Below, in pieces: positions 27,049-63,358 of a DNA stretch of 64,000 nt. Source of the DNA: Planctomycetota bacterium (GTDB taxonomy: Bacteria > Planctomycetota > UBA8108 > JACQVS01). The translations under genes and the position numbers were made by a program. Location: positions 1-64,000 of the forward strand of contig JANQLS010000090.1 of the NCBI GenBank assembly GCA_028280485.1. Reading direction: 5' to 3'. The stretch's first letter is position 1. Each line of letters opens with the position of its first letter. The notes below the pieces were generated by a model. The model worked only from the letters and a program-made list of their open reading frames with translations. It made no database searches and was not told where the DNA came from.

Positions 27049-27194
27049 CAAGCCCGAAGCTTTAGCGAGGGATAACGAAGAGTGTGAAATTCCAGGTCGT
27101 TGTGGATTTGTGATCATCGTGGGATTTCTTTTTTAAGCTAATTTGCCGCCATTTATTTTCCGCTTTGCTGACCCTCGTTGACACTTCGGGCTTG
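27049..27194. repeat. AGCCCGAAGC...GCGAGGG family inverted repeat
   Basis: CAAGCCCGAAGCTTTAGCGAGGG (27049-27071) vs CCCTCGTTGACACTTCGGGCTTG (27172-27194), arms 23 nt with mismatched centre. Confidence 0.7.
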
Positions 27195-38788: not shown

Positions 38789-40363
38789 ATGGCATATAAA
38801 GACTTATTCAATACTTTAGTTTCAAAACTTCCTAAGACCGACACCGCCAACGAGGCTGGGGGCCAAGCTTACCGCTTAGCTCCAAAACACGCTCTGGCGC
38901 AGTACGCAGTGACCGGTTGTATGAACTCAACCTTCTACGCATCGGCTCAATTGCAATTAGATCGAGTCTTGGCATTGTGTAACGAAATCGAACCCGAGTT
39001 CATCGCGAAGGTGGCGCTCTACGCTCGAAATCGTGGGTACATGAAAGACTTGCCCGCGTTGCTGGTCGCATACTTGGCTTCAAAGCAACCTGGCCTTATG
39101 GCTGAGGTTTTCGATCGAGTGATCGACAACCCCAAAATGCTTCGAAACTTCGTTCAAATTGTTCGAAGTGGAGTCACTGGGCGTCGAAGTTTGGGGTCGC
39201 TGCCCAAGCGAATGATTCTTCAATGGTTGGAGAAGCGTTCTGACGAGCAACTCTTTATTGGCTCAGTAGGAAACACTCCTTCTTTGGCGGACATCATCAA
39301 GATGGTTCACCCCAAGCCAAAAACCAAGTCTCGTGAAGCATTGTTCGGATACCTCTTAGGTCGGAGCTACGACGCTGAGGCTCTTCCTCAAGTGGTTCGA
39401 GATTTTGAGGCTTACAAGAATGCTGAAGATCGAAGAATGCTTGAGACTCCCGATGTCCCTTTCCAATTCTTAACCAGCTTAGATCTGGCGGATTGGGAAT
39501 GGCGTCAAATCGCTCGCTACGCTCCTTGGCAGATGACTCGAATGAACTTAAACGCGTTTGCTTCGCACAATGTGTTTAAGGACCTTGAGATCACCAAGTT
39601 GGTGGCTGATCGATTGCGCGATTCTGAAAAGGTTCGTCGAGCCAAAGTGTTCCCTTACCAACTTTTGGTCGCAAGTCAAAGCGCGCGTTCGGATGTTCCT
39701 TATGCGATTCGTTCAGCATTGGAAGATGCGTTGGAGGTCGCCTTGGAGAATGTTCCTGAGATCAAAGGAAAGGTTTATGTTTTCCTCGATATCTCTGGAT
39801 CGATGCATTCGCCCGTTACTGGGTATCGCCGTGGATCGACAACTGCTGTTCGTTGTATTGACGTTGCCTCATTATTGGCTTCGGCACTCGTAAAGAAAAA
39901 TCCTCAAACGGAGGTCATCCCTTTCGAGTCTCGTGCTTACGAGTTCAAGTTGGATGTGACCGAACGGGTGCTCGTCAACGCTCAACGCTTAGCGAGCTTG
40001 CCTTGTGGCGGAACCAACTGTTCAGCTCCGTTGGCGCTTCTTAACCGAAGAAAAGATCAGGGTGACTTAGTGATCTACGTCTCCGATAACGAGTCTTGGA
40101 TCGATTCTCCTTACTACGGTCACTTCGGTGGAAAGGCGACTCGAACTCTTCAAGAGTGGAGTTTGTTCAAGCGTCGAAGCCCTGAGGCAAAAATGATCTG
40201 TATCGACATTCAACCCTACGCCAACACTCAAGCTAAGGAACGAGAAGACATCATCAACGTCGGTGGCTTCTCGGATCAAGTGTTTAACTTGATCGCCGAA
40301 GTGGCGAGTGGAAACGCAACTGAGAATCATTGGGTGAACCTTATTGATGCCCAAAGGCTCTGA
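38789..40363 (+). CDS. rsr: Ro60/TROVE-domain RNA-binding protein with C-terminal VWA (MIDAS) domain
   Basis: 524 aa; HEAT-like TROVE region (VALYARNRGYMKDLPALLVAYLA, RNFVQIVRSGVTGRRSLG..PKRMILQWL), VWA DISGSMHSPVTG. Confidence 0.93.
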   Translation: MAYKDLFNTLVSKLPKTDTANEAGGQAYRLAPKHALAQYAVTGCMNSTFYASAQLQLDRVLALCNEIEPEFIAKVALYARNRGYMKDLPALLVAYLASKQPGLMAEVFDRVIDNPKMLRNFVQIVRSGVTGRRSLGSLPKRMILQWLEKRSDEQLFIGSVGNTPSLADIIKMVHPKPKTKSREALFGYLLGRSYDAEALPQVVRDFEAYKNAEDRRMLETPDVPFQFLTSLDLADWEWRQIARYAPWQMTRMNLNAFASHNVFKDLEITKLVADRLRDSEKVRRAKVFPYQLLVASQSARSDVPYAIRSALEDALEVALENVPEIKGKVYVFLDISGSMHSPVTGYRRGSTTAVRCIDVASLLASALVKKNPQTEVIPFESRAYEFKLDVTERVLVNAQRLASLPCGGTNCSAPLALLNRRKDQGDLVIYVSDNESWIDSPYYGHFGGKATRTLQEWSLFKRRSPEAKMICIDIQPYANTQAKEREDIINVGGFSDQVFNLIAEVASGNATENHWVNLIDAQRL

Positions 40364-40372
40364 GTTGCAAAA

Positions 40373-40592
40373 GTTGAGACAAGCCCCAGTGGGCTTGCCT
40401 CAACCTCTTCAGCAAATCTGCGATTTGCTTTCGCTCCGCTAAATGTAGGCTTTTAGCATACATTCGCGGTCGAGTTGATCCTAACTCGGAAAAGCTTCGA
40501 TGTGCCGAAGCTTTGTAGCAAAGATCCGAAGTGGTTTCACTTCGGTAAATGAGCTCTTGAGCCGTTTGACCTATTTTCAAGAGCTCGTTTTT
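40373..40592 (+). repeat. Array of consecutive hairpins in the Ro60 3' region, ending in a terminator
   Basis: Hairpins 40373-40404, 40411-40429, 40442-40464, 40471-40488, 40491-40514, 40526-40545, 40551-40586, last followed by GTTTTT. Confidence 0.85.
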
Positions 40593-40833
40593 CTAAACCT
40601 TATTCCTCGCTGGTTTGGGGGGTTTGAATCGCTGAACACCTTATACCCAAGCTCCCTGGCCAGCAATTTTTTTGATTTGAACCTTATAGACGTAGAAGTT
40701 TGCCCTTTTGAAAGATGTGCGGTGAAGTAAAAGAGGATTAGAAGTAGAAGCTTGTTAAAAGATGCGAAGTAAGAACTTATAGAGTTGAAGCGCGGTGAAG
40801 TAGAAGTTTAAGACAACAAGAAGTAATAGTTTT

Positions 40834-40919
40834 GTTGATGATCGAGTCGAATGCCCTAGGGACTACATTGAAATGAAAAGCCAAACGTCTCTAGACCGTT
40901 TGTCGACTCGATCTTCAAC
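40834..40919 (+). ncRNA. Y-RNA-like ncRNA, copy 1 (short, no tRNA-like module)
   Basis: Lower stem GTTGAtGATCGAGTCGA (40834-40850)/TCGACTCGATCtTCAAC (40903-40919); AUGCC internal loop; upper stem CTAGGGAC (40856)/GTCTCTAG (40887). Confidence 0.75.
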
Positions 40920-40980
40920 TTTCCCAGATCACATTGGGTGGTTGAAGAAAAAGTGGGTACTTGGGGCAACGCAAAGAATT

Positions 40981-41123
40981 GTGACGAATGCTGATGGAAC
41001 TACATGGATATTGACCCGTAGGTTGTGAGTTCGAGTCTCACCAGCTGCACCATAGGTGGCTGTAGCTCAAAGGTAGAGCAACGTAATGTAATTGTTTCAT
41101 TTAACCCTTGTCGTCACGTTTTT
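40981..41123 (+). ncRNA. Y-RNA-like ncRNA, copy 2, with permuted tRNA-like module
   Basis: Lower stem GTGACGA (40981)/TCGTCAC (41111) then GTTTTT; upper stem GATGGAAC (40993)/GTTTCATT (41094) and TACAT/ATGTA; T-arm GTGAG-TTCGAGT-CTCAC (41025-41041), acceptor CAGCTGC (41042)/GTGGCTG (41056), D-arm GCTC-AAAGGTA-GAGC (41065-41079). Confidence 0.88.
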
Positions 41124-41137
41124 ATATTCGTAATGAA

Positions 41138-41461
41138 TCATCCCCACATTGAAGGAAACAACAACCAGAAATGGATTAGGAAGTGACCCCAGAGAACCGC
41201 ACCAGCGCTCAGGCTTTTCGATTTAAATAATGCAATAAAGCCAAAGATGATTCCCACAGTTGCATCGAGCAAGATAAAGGAAAAGCCAATGAGGGCGCCT
41301 AAATAAGCGATAGGTGTAGGAAATATTCCGAGGAGAATTAATCCAAATCCAATCTGGGTAATAAGGCTTAAAATTAATGCGATGGCTGAGATCCAAAAGC
41401 AAACTCTCCCTTTCTTAGGATCTTTGTGGTGTGTCAGGGTTTGAAATATCGGATCAGCCAT
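41138..41461 (-). CDS. Small multi-TM membrane protein, family member 1
   Basis: 107 aa; CFWISAIALIL...SKSLSAGAVLWGHFLIHFW; shares layout with ten further ORFs in 41.8-49.7 kb. Confidence 0.7.
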   Translation of the reverse strand: MADPIFQTLTHHKDPKKGRVCFWISAIALILSLITQIGFGLILLGIFPTPIAYLGALIGFSFILLDATVGIIFGFIALFKSKSLSAGAVLWGHFLIHFWLLFPSMWG

Positions 41462-41498
41462 GATCTTAAGAATGAATTATTTATGTTATTCAATGGTA

Positions 41499-41577
41499 GA
41501 TTGAAACGAATGCCTTAGGGACTACATGCCCTCGACTTCTAATCGAACTGTCTCTAAACTTCCTTGTCGTTTCGATC
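41499..41577 (+). ncRNA. Y-RNA-like ncRNA, copy 3 (short)
   Basis: Lower stem GATTGAAACGA (41499)/TCGTTTCGATC (41567); AUGCC loop; upper stem TTAGGGAC (41515)/GTCTCTAA (41550). Confidence 0.75.
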
Positions 41578-41608
41578 TGCCGTGATATTTCTTAGTTTTC
41601 GTTTCGGT

Positions 41609-41732
41609 ACTCGCGAATGCCAGTGGGAATACATGGTAGAGGCGGATTTCTCCGCCGGGGTTCGAGGCCCCAACTCACATTGGAAAAACTCTGATTGAGA
41701 AAAATCTCACTACCCTTTGTCGCGAGTTTTTT
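41609..41732 (+). ncRNA. Y-RNA-like ncRNA, copy 4 (long, with T-arm-like hairpin)
   Basis: Lower stem ACTCGCGA (41609)/TCGCGAGT (41720) then TTTTTT; upper stem AGTGGGA (41622)/TCTCACT (41705); hairpin GGCGGA-TTTC-TCCGCC and T-arm-like GGGG-TTCGAGG-CCCC (41657-41671). Confidence 0.8.
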
Positions 41733-41843
41733 AGGGCTGATGAAAACCCTAAATTCATAACCGTTTTTAAGTCAGTTATTTCACGATAAATTAGAAAATT
41801 CTGCTGGGATTTTTGCTCAAGTTTCCTGTTCTAATATTTTAAC

Positions 41844-42233
41844 TTAACGGTAAACCCACCACTCAATAAGTAGAAATAGAAGTGCAATAAGAGAAGCCCA
41901 GATCCACCAAAATTGAATAGCAACTTGGGCGATACAGAGATACAGCATCGATTTTTTTCGTGTTCGCATATGACAAATCATCCCCGATGATAATCCAATC
42001 GCTGCGATTATCATGGCGAGGATTATTCCAATTGCATAGCCGTCTTTTGGATGATAGCGAGGGTCTTCAATTTGAACGTTTAATATTGCCAAAAAAATAA
42101 TAGTTCCATGAGTAAATATTCCGAAAGCTAACGAGGCAATGCTAACCCAAAAAGGAATCGTTATATTTCTGGGAATGCGGTGATCTGTTTCAATCGGTGG
42201 GATTGAATTATAGTCTTCTGGTGGTTCCGTCAT
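41844..42233 (-). CDS. Small multi-TM membrane protein, family member 2
   Basis: 129 aa; IPFWVSIASLAFGIFTHG. Confidence 0.7.
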   Translation of the reverse strand: MTEPPEDYNSIPPIETDHRIPRNITIPFWVSIASLAFGIFTHGTIIFLAILNVQIEDPRYHPKDGYAIGIILAMIIAAIGLSSGMICHMRTRKKSMLYLCIAQVAIQFWWIWASLIALLFLLIEWWVYR

Positions 42234-42274
42234 TAACCGAAAAAATTCACTCGCTGTTTGCCACTTAATTCATT

Positions 42275-42628
42275 TTATAAGTTCCCCATAGCGTAAAGAA
42301 TCGATAATGGGAATCCAACAACAAATAGATTTCCAAACCAAATTAGGAAGCCTTTTAAATCGCCTGCTCTAACCCAATAGATCGTGCTGGATATAAAGCC
42401 GACCAAGGTGATTACTGAGATGATCATCAATCCATAAACGTAAGCTGCTATGGCATCCCAGCCCTTAATAATTCCAGTGGAAATAGTGACTACCAACAAA
42501 ATTTCCAAGAATAGATTCAGGCCGATGGCAACGATGGTAATCCAAAACGATTTTGGGGCGTGGAAGGACTCTTTCTTTGGTAGTTCATTGATGATCGGAG
42601 TGGGAGAGTTGTAGTCGCTGGTGTTCAT
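42275..42628 (-). CDS. Small multi-TM membrane protein, family member 3
   Basis: 117 aa; KSFWITIVAIGLNL. Confidence 0.7.
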   Translation of the reverse strand: MNTSDYNSPTPIINELPKKESFHAPKSFWITIVAIGLNLFLEILLVVTISTGIIKGWDAIAAYVYGLMIISVITLVGFISSTIYWVRAGDLKGFLIWFGNLFVVGFPLSILYAMGNL

Positions 42629-42640
42629 GGTCTACTACTT

Positions 42641-43015
42641 TCAAATAGAACTCAGGCCAAGAGAGACGATCGTGACGAAAGCAGGCACGACCATACTTAA
42701 GATAAATACAAAGCCACTGGTGAGAGAGCGCGATTTTATTAAGAAAATAAAACTTGTGATGAAGCCTATGATTGCTGAGCCCAGGGCTGCAAAGAGGAAA
42801 AAGGGAAGCCCAAAAGTGCTCACTACTAATAAGACCATTGAGCTTTGACTGAATATCATTGCGACCAATAGGAAGGCCAGGATCAGAAAGTTCAAGAAGA
42901 TCGCCCAAAGGGATTGAGCTAAGTACTTTCCGTACTTTGAATCTGACTTCGGGATGCATCCGCTGAGAATTTCAGTGATTGAAAGACGATCTTGATTCTT
43001 CATTGATAATCTCAA
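42641..43015 (-). CDS. Small multi-TM membrane protein, family member 4
   Basis: 124 aa; SLWAIFLNFLIL...KSRSLTSGFVFILSMVVPAFV. Overlapping frame 42585..42959 considered less likely. Confidence 0.65.
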   Translation of the reverse strand: MRLSMKNQDRLSITEILSGCIPKSDSKYGKYLAQSLWAIFLNFLILAFLLVAMIFSQSSMVLLVVSTFGLPFFLFAALGSAIIGFITSFIFLIKSRSLTSGFVFILSMVVPAFVTIVSLGLSSI

Positions 43016-43063
43016 TTCTTTTAAACTTAAAATTGCAGTTAATGTCGAGAGTTCTACGCATCT

Positions 43064-43489
43064 TTAAAAATTCTGTATGATAAACGGAATTGCGGGGGCG
43101 AGGAAATTTAGAGCGAATACTGCGTAGCCCAAGGCGGACTCACGCAGGGCTTGAAACATTGCACTGGCGAGAAATCCCAAACCTGTAATTGCGGCCAAAG
43201 GTAAGTACATACGAAAATAATTGATTAATACCTCAACTGATTGAAATAGATTTGCATTCTTCCAATCAGAGATGAAGTTATGTGATAAAGAGCTTGAGAA
43301 AACAAAGCTCTCAACACAGAAGGCGATTGCAATAAAAAGATAGATGCCGGCGAAGAAGTCAGTTCTAAGATTTGTTTTCCTCTCACTGCTAAGTGAATCG
43401 GATAAGAGCTTGCTCCTTTTTAAGCGTAGTTGTTCTCTTTGATTTGCTAAGGCTGAGATTGCTTTCATGTTTTGCATTTGAGACTCCAT
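43064..43489 (-). CDS. Small multi-TM membrane protein, family member 5
   Basis: 141 aa; ESALGYAVFALNFLAPAIPFI. Confidence 0.7.
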   Translation of the reverse strand: MESQMQNMKAISALANQREQLRLKRSKLLSDSLSSERKTNLRTDFFAGIYLFIAIAFCVESFVFSSSLSHNFISDWKNANLFQSVEVLINYFRMYLPLAAITGLGFLASAMFQALRESALGYAVFALNFLAPAIPFIIQNF

Positions 43490-43510
43490 TCATTCGAAAA
43501 TCTTGAGCGA

Positions 43511-43924
43511 TCAGAAATACTTGATGGCGACGAAGGGAAGAAAAGGCGCGATTGTATTCAAGGTGAGAGCGATTCCTCCCAGCAATGATCCCTTTCTGGC
43601 TAAGGTGAACGCGCTAATGACGACGCCGATTCCAGTCAATAGCCCCACTCCAATCAAGCCAATGCCGCCCCAGATCATGAGCGCAAGGTAACCGTAGCTA
43701 GAAGTAGCTTCCCACTCGTCCAAGAATTTCATAAGTAAAAAACTGGTACAAGCCAAGTTGAAAAAGAAGTAGAGCGTTGCTGGAGTCAAAAATGCGATAT
43801 CGGCGATTTTGGACTCTTTAGGCTCTTTGATATTCCTTGGAATAATGCTGTGCTCTGCTAATTCATTCATGGTTTGTTCTTTTTTTTCTGAGTTGAGTTT
43901 TTTTATTAAATCGAAGAGCTTCAT
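43511..43924 (-). CDS. Small multi-TM membrane protein, family member 6
   Basis: 137 aa; KGSLLGGIALTLNTIAPFLPFV. Confidence 0.7.
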   Translation of the reverse strand: MKLFDLIKKLNSEKKEQTMNELAEHSIIPRNIKEPKESKIADIAFLTPATLYFFFNLACTSFLLMKFLDEWEATSSYGYLALMIWGGIGLIGVGLLTGIGVVISAFTLARKGSLLGGIALTLNTIAPFLPFVAIKYF

Positions 43925-43933
43925 TTTTTTACC

Positions 43934-44353
43934 TCAGGCGAATTGGAGGTAGAGGGGAATCGCGGGAGTGGCTATGTTAAAGATCACACCGAGGATCCCC
44001 TTAAAGGTGCCTGAGCCTGCGCTTTCCCTAGTCGCCGTTATCATTCCCCAGCACATAATTCCGACAATCGGAATGAGTAAGAAGGCGTGATAGAGCATTA
44101 CCCAAAGTATTTCGATTCCCCATGCAGCGTCTGCTCTCGCGTTGAAGTTTAGAATCAACAACCAGCTGAAAACCATATTCATCCCGCCGATCATCATGCC
44201 GGGAATCATTGCGCTGAGGGCAGCAGCTTCAGCTTCTTGCTTAGCTCCGTTTAAGTATTCAGTTCTTTCGTTATTAGCGATTTTGTTCATGACGACTCTC
44301 CATTCATTCAAGGTTTTTAGGACAGCGATCTCTAAAAGCAAGGTAGGTGCCAA
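43934..44353 (-). CDS. Small multi-TM membrane protein, family member 7
   Basis: 139 aa; SGTFKGILGVIFNIATPAIPLYLQ. Confidence 0.7.
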   Translation of the reverse strand: MAPTLLLEIAVLKTLNEWRVVMNKIANNERTEYLNGAKQEAEAAALSAMIPGMMIGGMNMVFSWLLILNFNARADAAWGIEILWVMLYHAFLLIPIVGIMCWGMITATRESAGSGTFKGILGVIFNIATPAIPLYLQFA

Positions 44354-44561: not shown

Positions 44562-44862
44562 CCCTTAGTAAGCCCGGAGCGTAAGCGACGGGATCTCTTC
44601 TTAGAACTCTCTCTATAAATTTATCCCTGAGAGCTTTGCCCTTTTTCGTCTTAATCTAATTTATAGTTTACCCCGTGTCCCGTCGCTTACGCTCCGAGGC
44701 TGTGAGTTTTTAGGACTTCCAACTTAACTAGCCCGAAGCGCTAGCGAGGGAAGTACCCCTCGCTAGCGCTTCGGGCTAGTTAAGACCGTATTTCTACTAT
44801 TTTGGAATCCGGCTCTAACTAAGCTTGATAAATATTCACAGCCTCTCCGGGCTTACTAAGGC
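44562..44862. repeat. Nested inverted-repeat element (AGCCCGAAGC/GCGAGGG family)
   Basis: Innermost perfect 27-bp IR 44724-44750/44757-44783 (6-nt loop); outer arms CCTTAGTAAGCCCGGAG / CTCCGGGCTTACTAAGG and TCCCGTCGCTTACGCTCCG partner. Confidence 0.85.
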
Positions 44863-63157: not shown

Positions 63158-63358
63158 TGATCCCTCGCTCAGTGTTGATGGTCGCTTCGCTGCATCGTGT
63201 AAGTAAGCCTTCGGCTTACACACTCCCTAAAGGCTCGGGCTTGGGAGGCGAAGATTCCCTTCAAAGAAATAACTGCGGCAAGGGTTATCTCTCAAGGCAT
63301 CGAATCGCTATTAGGAGAATGACCAACCCTCCAAGCCCGAAGCTTGAGCGAGGGATCA
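63158..63358. repeat. ~200-bp element with 14-bp terminal inverted repeats (AGCCCGAAGC/GCGAGGG family)
   Basis: TGATCCCTCGCTCA (63158-63171) / TGAGCGAGGGATCA (63345-63358); internal CGGGCTTGG/CCAAGCCCG and GTAAGCC-ttc-GGCTTAC. Confidence 0.7.

Follow-up and report, generated by a model that had tools for sequence, protein, structure and literature searches.

Why is the stop codon of a Ro60 gene followed at once by seven hairpins in a row? The gene lies in the window, that is, the whole stretch of 64,000 nucleotides that was analysed, and an earlier note had described the hairpins as an array exceeding a simple terminator, suggesting a structured 3'UTR, a separate ncRNA or a ligand through which Ro60 acts on its own mRNA. 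All seven hairpins are present where that note had placed them. Folding with randomised controls, the check proposed there, gave an MFE of −96.7 kcal/mol for the 233 nt 3' of the stop codon (40364-40596), versus −60.1 ± 4.6 kcal/mol for 200 dinucleotide shuffles (z −7.9); none of the 200 folded as well, so the fold of the array goes far beyond chance, and the array does exceed a simple terminator. It is, in fact, composite, made up mostly of a copy of a dispersed repeat together with a probable terminator, as reported in the following list:

38789-40363, + strand, Ro60/Rsr gene with TROVE and vWA_Ro60 domains (Pfam PF25045, 47.6 bits; PF05731, 30.2 bits; both over the cut-off)
40373-40592, + strand, hairpin array, seven hairpins 3' of the Ro60 stop codon (Ro60 end, 40363)
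40365-40514, + strand, sense to Ro60, diverged repeat copy (covariance model R1, 116.4 bits; nhmmer 40369-40502, 110.5 bits)
40373-40404, + strand, HP1, first hairpin of the repeat, with covariation in 68 other copies
40411-40429, + strand, HP2, second hairpin of the repeat, with covariation in 68 other copies
40436-40469, + strand, HP3, third hairpin of the repeat, with covariation in 68 other copies
40470-40489, + strand, HP4, fourth hairpin and most conserved module of the repeat, loop ATCC
40491-40514, + strand, HP5, in the position of the fifth hairpin, its sequence not recognisable as repeat
40526-40545, + strand, HP6, unique sequence, with a terminator-like score on the − strand only
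40547-40592, + strand, HP7 with GTTTTT, hairpin to 40590 and T run to 40592, probable intrinsic terminator of Ro60

Judged by sequence, HP1-HP4 (40373-40489) are a diverged copy of a dispersed repeat of about 158 nt, whose orientation is defined by the A1/A2 consensus; at 116.4 bits with the covariance model, it is the single copy in the window. HP5 probably belongs to the same copy, given its position. The inverted repeats that end full copies are not recognisable here, and the boundary of the Ro60 copy is therefore blurred. A DNA search with 40488-40600 found no significant relative in the same genome, so that HP6 and HP7 are unique; nor did the DNA search support a derivation of HP5 and HP6 from REP palindromes, which a common CCGAAGCTTT, seen by eye, had suggested. 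HP7 has a 15-bp stem (−18.0 kcal/mol) and a loop of about 14 nt followed by the T run, thus combining the GC-containing stem and the U tract of an intrinsic terminator, and it was not listed by the consensus terminator scan because its loop is longer than the 3-8 nt to which the scan is limited. HP7 is likely to be the transcription terminator of Ro60 itself. As a description, a structured 3'UTR would hold on condition that transcription of Ro60 continues as far as HP7.

The repeat was searched for in the planctomycete-like genome to which the window belongs (9.37 Mb in 205 contigs). The region 40364-40600 gave 48 matches by DNA search, the query included, thus 47 other places, with 74-85% identity and all within query positions 7-130. 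A covariance model, built on 37 aligned copies including that of the window, matched 150 of the 150 candidates scored; the number of copies in the 9.37-Mb genome, at least 150, is a lower bound. The consensus unit measures about 158 nt and has five hairpins (HP1, GTTGAAACAAGCTCC/GGAGC..G.TTCAAC; HP2, AGCAAATC/GATTTGCT; HP3, CCGC..AACGTAGGCTC/GAGCCTACGTT.GCGG; HP4, CCGAGTTG-ATCC-CAACTCGG; HP5, TTAGTTCCTGTT/AACAGGAACTAA), and longer variants of about 190 nt carry an additional module in HP3. Several copies form tandems, and contig ends are a frequent location. Moreover, a second multi-hairpin subfamily of about 190-236 nt, found near a Y1 transposase gene (L205:411-646; G000:C182:16426-16661), shares ends and architecture with the five-hairpin repeat and differs in its inner modules; it has its own set of copies, many of them partial or full. 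An Rfam search with a good copy, at a relaxed threshold, returned chance-level matches only, and integron attC sites were rejected because the copies, with five hairpins each, occur on dozens of different contigs. In the genomes of 59 relatives, one of them of the same family, neither DNA nor model searches (the latter scoring up to 49 candidates per genome) found the repeat; its exact core was absent from the GTDB species contigs, a collection from which the window's own genome may have been withheld, and no copy adjoined Ro60 in any of the relatives searched. The repeat is apparently a new, modular, MITE-like family restricted to the species.

An alignment of 68 copies, from which that of the window was excluded, allowed us to evaluate the five hairpins by covariation. 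Paired cells amounted to 91.7%, changes on both sides were observed in 35 of the 58 pairs (shuffled mean, 15.7), and double-change cells were 199, versus 65 after shuffling and 25-45 with slid partners. All five hairpins contribute, as in the case of HP4, which appears as CCTGCTTG/CAAGCAGG in two copies. Since the copies are related, the shuffles by themselves overstate the significance; the slid controls retain this relatedness, but are biased towards a structure that was itself derived from these sequences. The structure of the repeat is conserved as structure. Template-switch correction of quasi-palindromes yields perfect short palindromes with compensatory changes, a pattern that fits what we observed, and a mutational process of this kind could have produced the covariation with no selection on the fold; on the other hand, the same five hairpins and their linkers are kept across copies, and the asymmetry of mismatches described below is not obviously expected from it, so that we regard this origin as improbable.

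The placement of the copies was directly counted with a simple ORF caller and a 100-aa cut-off, cut-offs of 70 and 120 aa being in agreement. Only 5 of 110 copies overlapped an ORF, the rest being intergenic. Between co-directional genes, counting one copy per intergenic region, 42 copies out of 50 had the orientation seen at Ro60 and 8 were reversed (p 1e-6). Of 57 copies preceded by a gene in the same sense, 26 start within 15 nt 3' of its stop codon, against 4 of 57 that lie within 15 nt before a same-sense start downstream. The copy at Ro60, at a distance of no more than 10 nt from the stop codon, is thus typical of the family. A replication-strand bias was rejected, the orientation showing no relation to GC skew in 33 non-tandem places. 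The architecture recalls the BOX elements of Streptococcus pneumoniae (PMC3049150), which are likewise modular, interspersed, intergenic hairpin repeats with mosaic variants, found near other repeats; the likeness is one of architecture only, with no known sequence relation and in a different phylum, and BOX is reported to be over-represented between convergent genes (PMC3049150), whereas most copies of the repeat lie between co-directional genes and in one orientation.

What we can explain least is the strand on which the repeat folds. Single changes from the consensus pairs gave A.C mismatches in 116 cases and G.T in 35, mostly in HP1-HP3 (38 versus 22 as distinct pair/type combinations), and the unpaired columns showed no bias in the A.C direction, but are nearly devoid of G. 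Because A.C reads as a G.U pair in the complement, it seems to be the strand opposite the upstream mRNA whose fold is constrained. In fact, in 67 of 68 copies it was the complementary strand that folded at lower energy (on average −75.8 versus −65.6 kcal/mol), and the Ro60 copy behaved likewise (40365-40519, −73.1 versus −62.1 kcal/mol). This apparently antisense location of the constrained fold may reflect an antisense RNA, an ssDNA intermediate, or the removal of those insertions that would place the stronger fold in an mRNA; a better-folding strand opposite the message sits badly with selection for a role at the mRNA level.

Read in this way, the repeat could be a dispersed ncRNA or ssDNA family whose functional fold lies opposite the neighbouring genes, and the array at Ro60 would be read on the − strand and would be no 3'UTR device. 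Besides the excess of A.C over G.T and the gain of about 10 kcal/mol in 67 of the 68 copies, the conserved linkers are purine-rich on the complementary strand, and the genome contains 11 matches to Y1 (HUH) transposases. However, the repeat has no Rfam match, a relative of it is found at one Y1 locus only, its orientation is unlinked to GC skew in the 33 non-tandem places, the direct-repeat signal in its flanks (see below) suggests a duplicating transposase, and the mismatch counts come from related and thus non-independent copies; altogether, we consider this reading rather unlikely. The broader proposal that this previously undescribed, genome-restricted family of at least 150 five-hairpin elements is a mobile structured RNA or ssDNA under strand-specific selection, with its conserved fold opposite the preceding genes, and that it shapes the 3' ends of many genes, Ro60 among them, is equally speculative.

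How the repeat may move was approached through its ends. Full copies end in the inverted repeats TTAGTTYCTGTTGA, which are lost to recognition in the Ro60 copy; in the 84 copies with both ends aligned, the ends are common and the flanks unrelated. The flanking 8-mers agree in direct register above permuted pairs (z 4.9; 0 of 1000 permutations), which may point to a short duplication of the target inside a site resembling CTAATTAG, though not to its exact length. A Pfam transposase search gave two DDE_Tnp_1 (PF01609) loci, neither with the ends of the repeat, and no matches to PF01610 or PF13358 in the genome; mobilisation by these DDE families was discarded, having no locus with matching ends. 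The ends were also absent at 10 of the 11 Y1 loci, L205 alone carrying a relative of the repeat, and mobilisation by the 11 Y1 transposases was rejected as well. The responsible transposase was not found among the Y1, PF01609, PF01610 and PF13358 families, and mobility thus rests on the distribution of the copies.

In this respect the repeat resembles the prokaryotic MITEs (Correia, Nezha, Chunjie, QMITE; PMC10969869), which are shorter than 500 bp, have terminal inverted repeats, no ORF and a high copy number, and are intergenic, with stable stem-loops, size variants and direct repeats at their flanks. The repeat is likewise short (158-190 nt), non-coding, intergenic (5 of 110 copies overlapping ORFs) and present in at least 150 copies, with terminal inverted repeats in the full copies, if not recognisably in the one at Ro60. 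Unlike them, it has no parent IS among the transposase families searched, each of its five hairpins covaries, and its terminal repeat is present three times, at both ends and in the inner arm of HP5. The REP/BIME elements with RAYT transposases (PMC3733652) are also of high copy number, intergenic and suspected of effects on mRNA, and REPs are typically near the 3' ends of genes. They are, however, single palindromes of 20-40 bp (PMC3733652), whereas the repeat is a five-hairpin unit of about 158 nt with inverted-repeat ends, and its ends are absent at 10 of 11 Y1 loci, so that it does not match the REP arrangement, in which a palindrome of that small size borders a RAYT gene. The same genome has REP-like palindromes around its Y1 transposase genes, a further point in common with REP/BIME (PMC3733652): the families CCCTCGCTAAAGCTTCGGGCTTG, CCCTCGCTAGCGCTTCGGGCTAGTTAA and CCCGTCGCTTACGCTCCGGGCTTACTAA often form inverted pairs, also flanking Y1 transposase genes, and occur in the window at 27051-27194, 44730-44779 and 63224-63353, as well as at L205, L206, L207 and L211. 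At three places (L050, L089 and L098) a REP-like palindrome has the five-hairpin repeat adjoining its tail.

If most of the array is a repeat, the RNA partners of Ro60 have to be looked for elsewhere, and candidates were found further downstream:

40838-40921, + strand, Y RNA without tRNA-like domain (fold z −4.65; CGAATGC..GGRACTACAT..TTGTCG), probable Ro60 partner
40978-41122, + strand, YrlA-type Y RNA with permuted tRNA-like domain (Rfam YrlA 54.7 bits, E 3.4e-11, below the gathering score of 69)
41498-41577, + strand, Y RNA without tRNA-like domain (fold z −3.04; shared motifs)
41607-41746, + strand, YrlA-like Y RNA, then TTTTTT (Rfam YrlA 30.7 bits, E 2.9e-4, below the gathering score; fold z −2.24)

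Both YrlA matches are below the Rfam gathering score and would thus be missed by default annotation; in fact, the whole window gave no Rfam match at that score. Within the array region and downstream, the CGAATGC...TTGTCG motifs occur only at 40838-41746, and about 475 nt, among them those of the repeat, separate the Ro60 stop codon from the first Y RNA. In the stretch between the terminator and this Y RNA (40684-40830) we noticed a run of GAAGTAGAAG-like imperfect direct repeats, and beside the cluster, on the − strand (41138-44353), a row of small predicted proteins (107-141 aa) that look hydrophobic on inspection by eye, two of which were searched against Pfam with no match. The Ro60 protein has 80 relatives, the best of them 66% identical, and the motif pair was found within 1.5 kb 3' of Ro60 in all the 24 relatives tested, beginning in most of them 20-260 nt after the stop codon; in four named relatives a YrlA match above the gathering score was obtained 3' of Ro60. 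The 3' regions of the relatives' Ro60 genes often fold better than shuffles too (z from −0.4 to −7.1), as expected from the Y RNAs present there. The four RNAs at 40838-41746, two of them YrlA-like, are likely the partners of Ro60.

The array itself, like the bacterial Y RNAs and YrlA (RF02553; PMC7790460), adjoins Ro60, but it has neither Y RNA motifs nor a tRNA-like domain, and the real Y RNAs are downstream of it. No YrlA match and no CGAATGC..TTGTCG signature were found at 40364-40596, nor any Rfam match at the gathering score, and the earlier note's comparison of GATCCGAAG with Y RNA motifs thus found no confirmation. A separate ncRNA was also left without support, the first ~126 nt of the array being one of at least 150 dispersed copies beside many other genes. 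As for an autoregulatory element, in which the hairpins would bind Ro60 on its own mRNA, what speaks for it is the position directly 3' of the Ro60 stop codon together with the strength of the fold (z −7.9). The same repeat, however, adjoins many other genes and was found near Ro60 in none of the relatives, and Y RNAs with shared motifs are encoded downstream, as the motif pair is in 24 of 24 relatives; we regard this explanation as very improbable, and a Ro60-specific role of the array as unlikely. The array is not preserved at the nearest Ro60 found, which, being merely 66% identical, is too distant for a strict comparison with a close relative.

We consider it quite probable that HP1-HP4, with HP5 probably included, are an old and diverged insertion of a MITE-like repeat no further than 10 nt 3' of the Ro60 stop codon, and that HP6 and HP7 are local sequence, the latter being the likely terminator. 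According to this explanation, the repeat would spread as a non-autonomous DNA element, as its inverted-repeat ends and the direct-repeat signal in the flanks suggest, would be tolerated just downstream of genes and, once transcribed, would enter the 3' ends of mRNAs as generic hairpins. There, these could possibly slow down exonucleases working in the 3'-to-5' direction, and protect neighbouring transcripts or uncouple them, an effect on mRNA that we propose tentatively. For Ro60, the idea of an autoregulatory ligand is removed, and a genome-restricted repeat now separates the gene from its Y RNA genes. Moreover, at least 150 natural copies allow conservation of structure, strand asymmetry and orientation bias to be measured, so that the reason why multi-hairpin repeats settle behind stop codons becomes directly testable.
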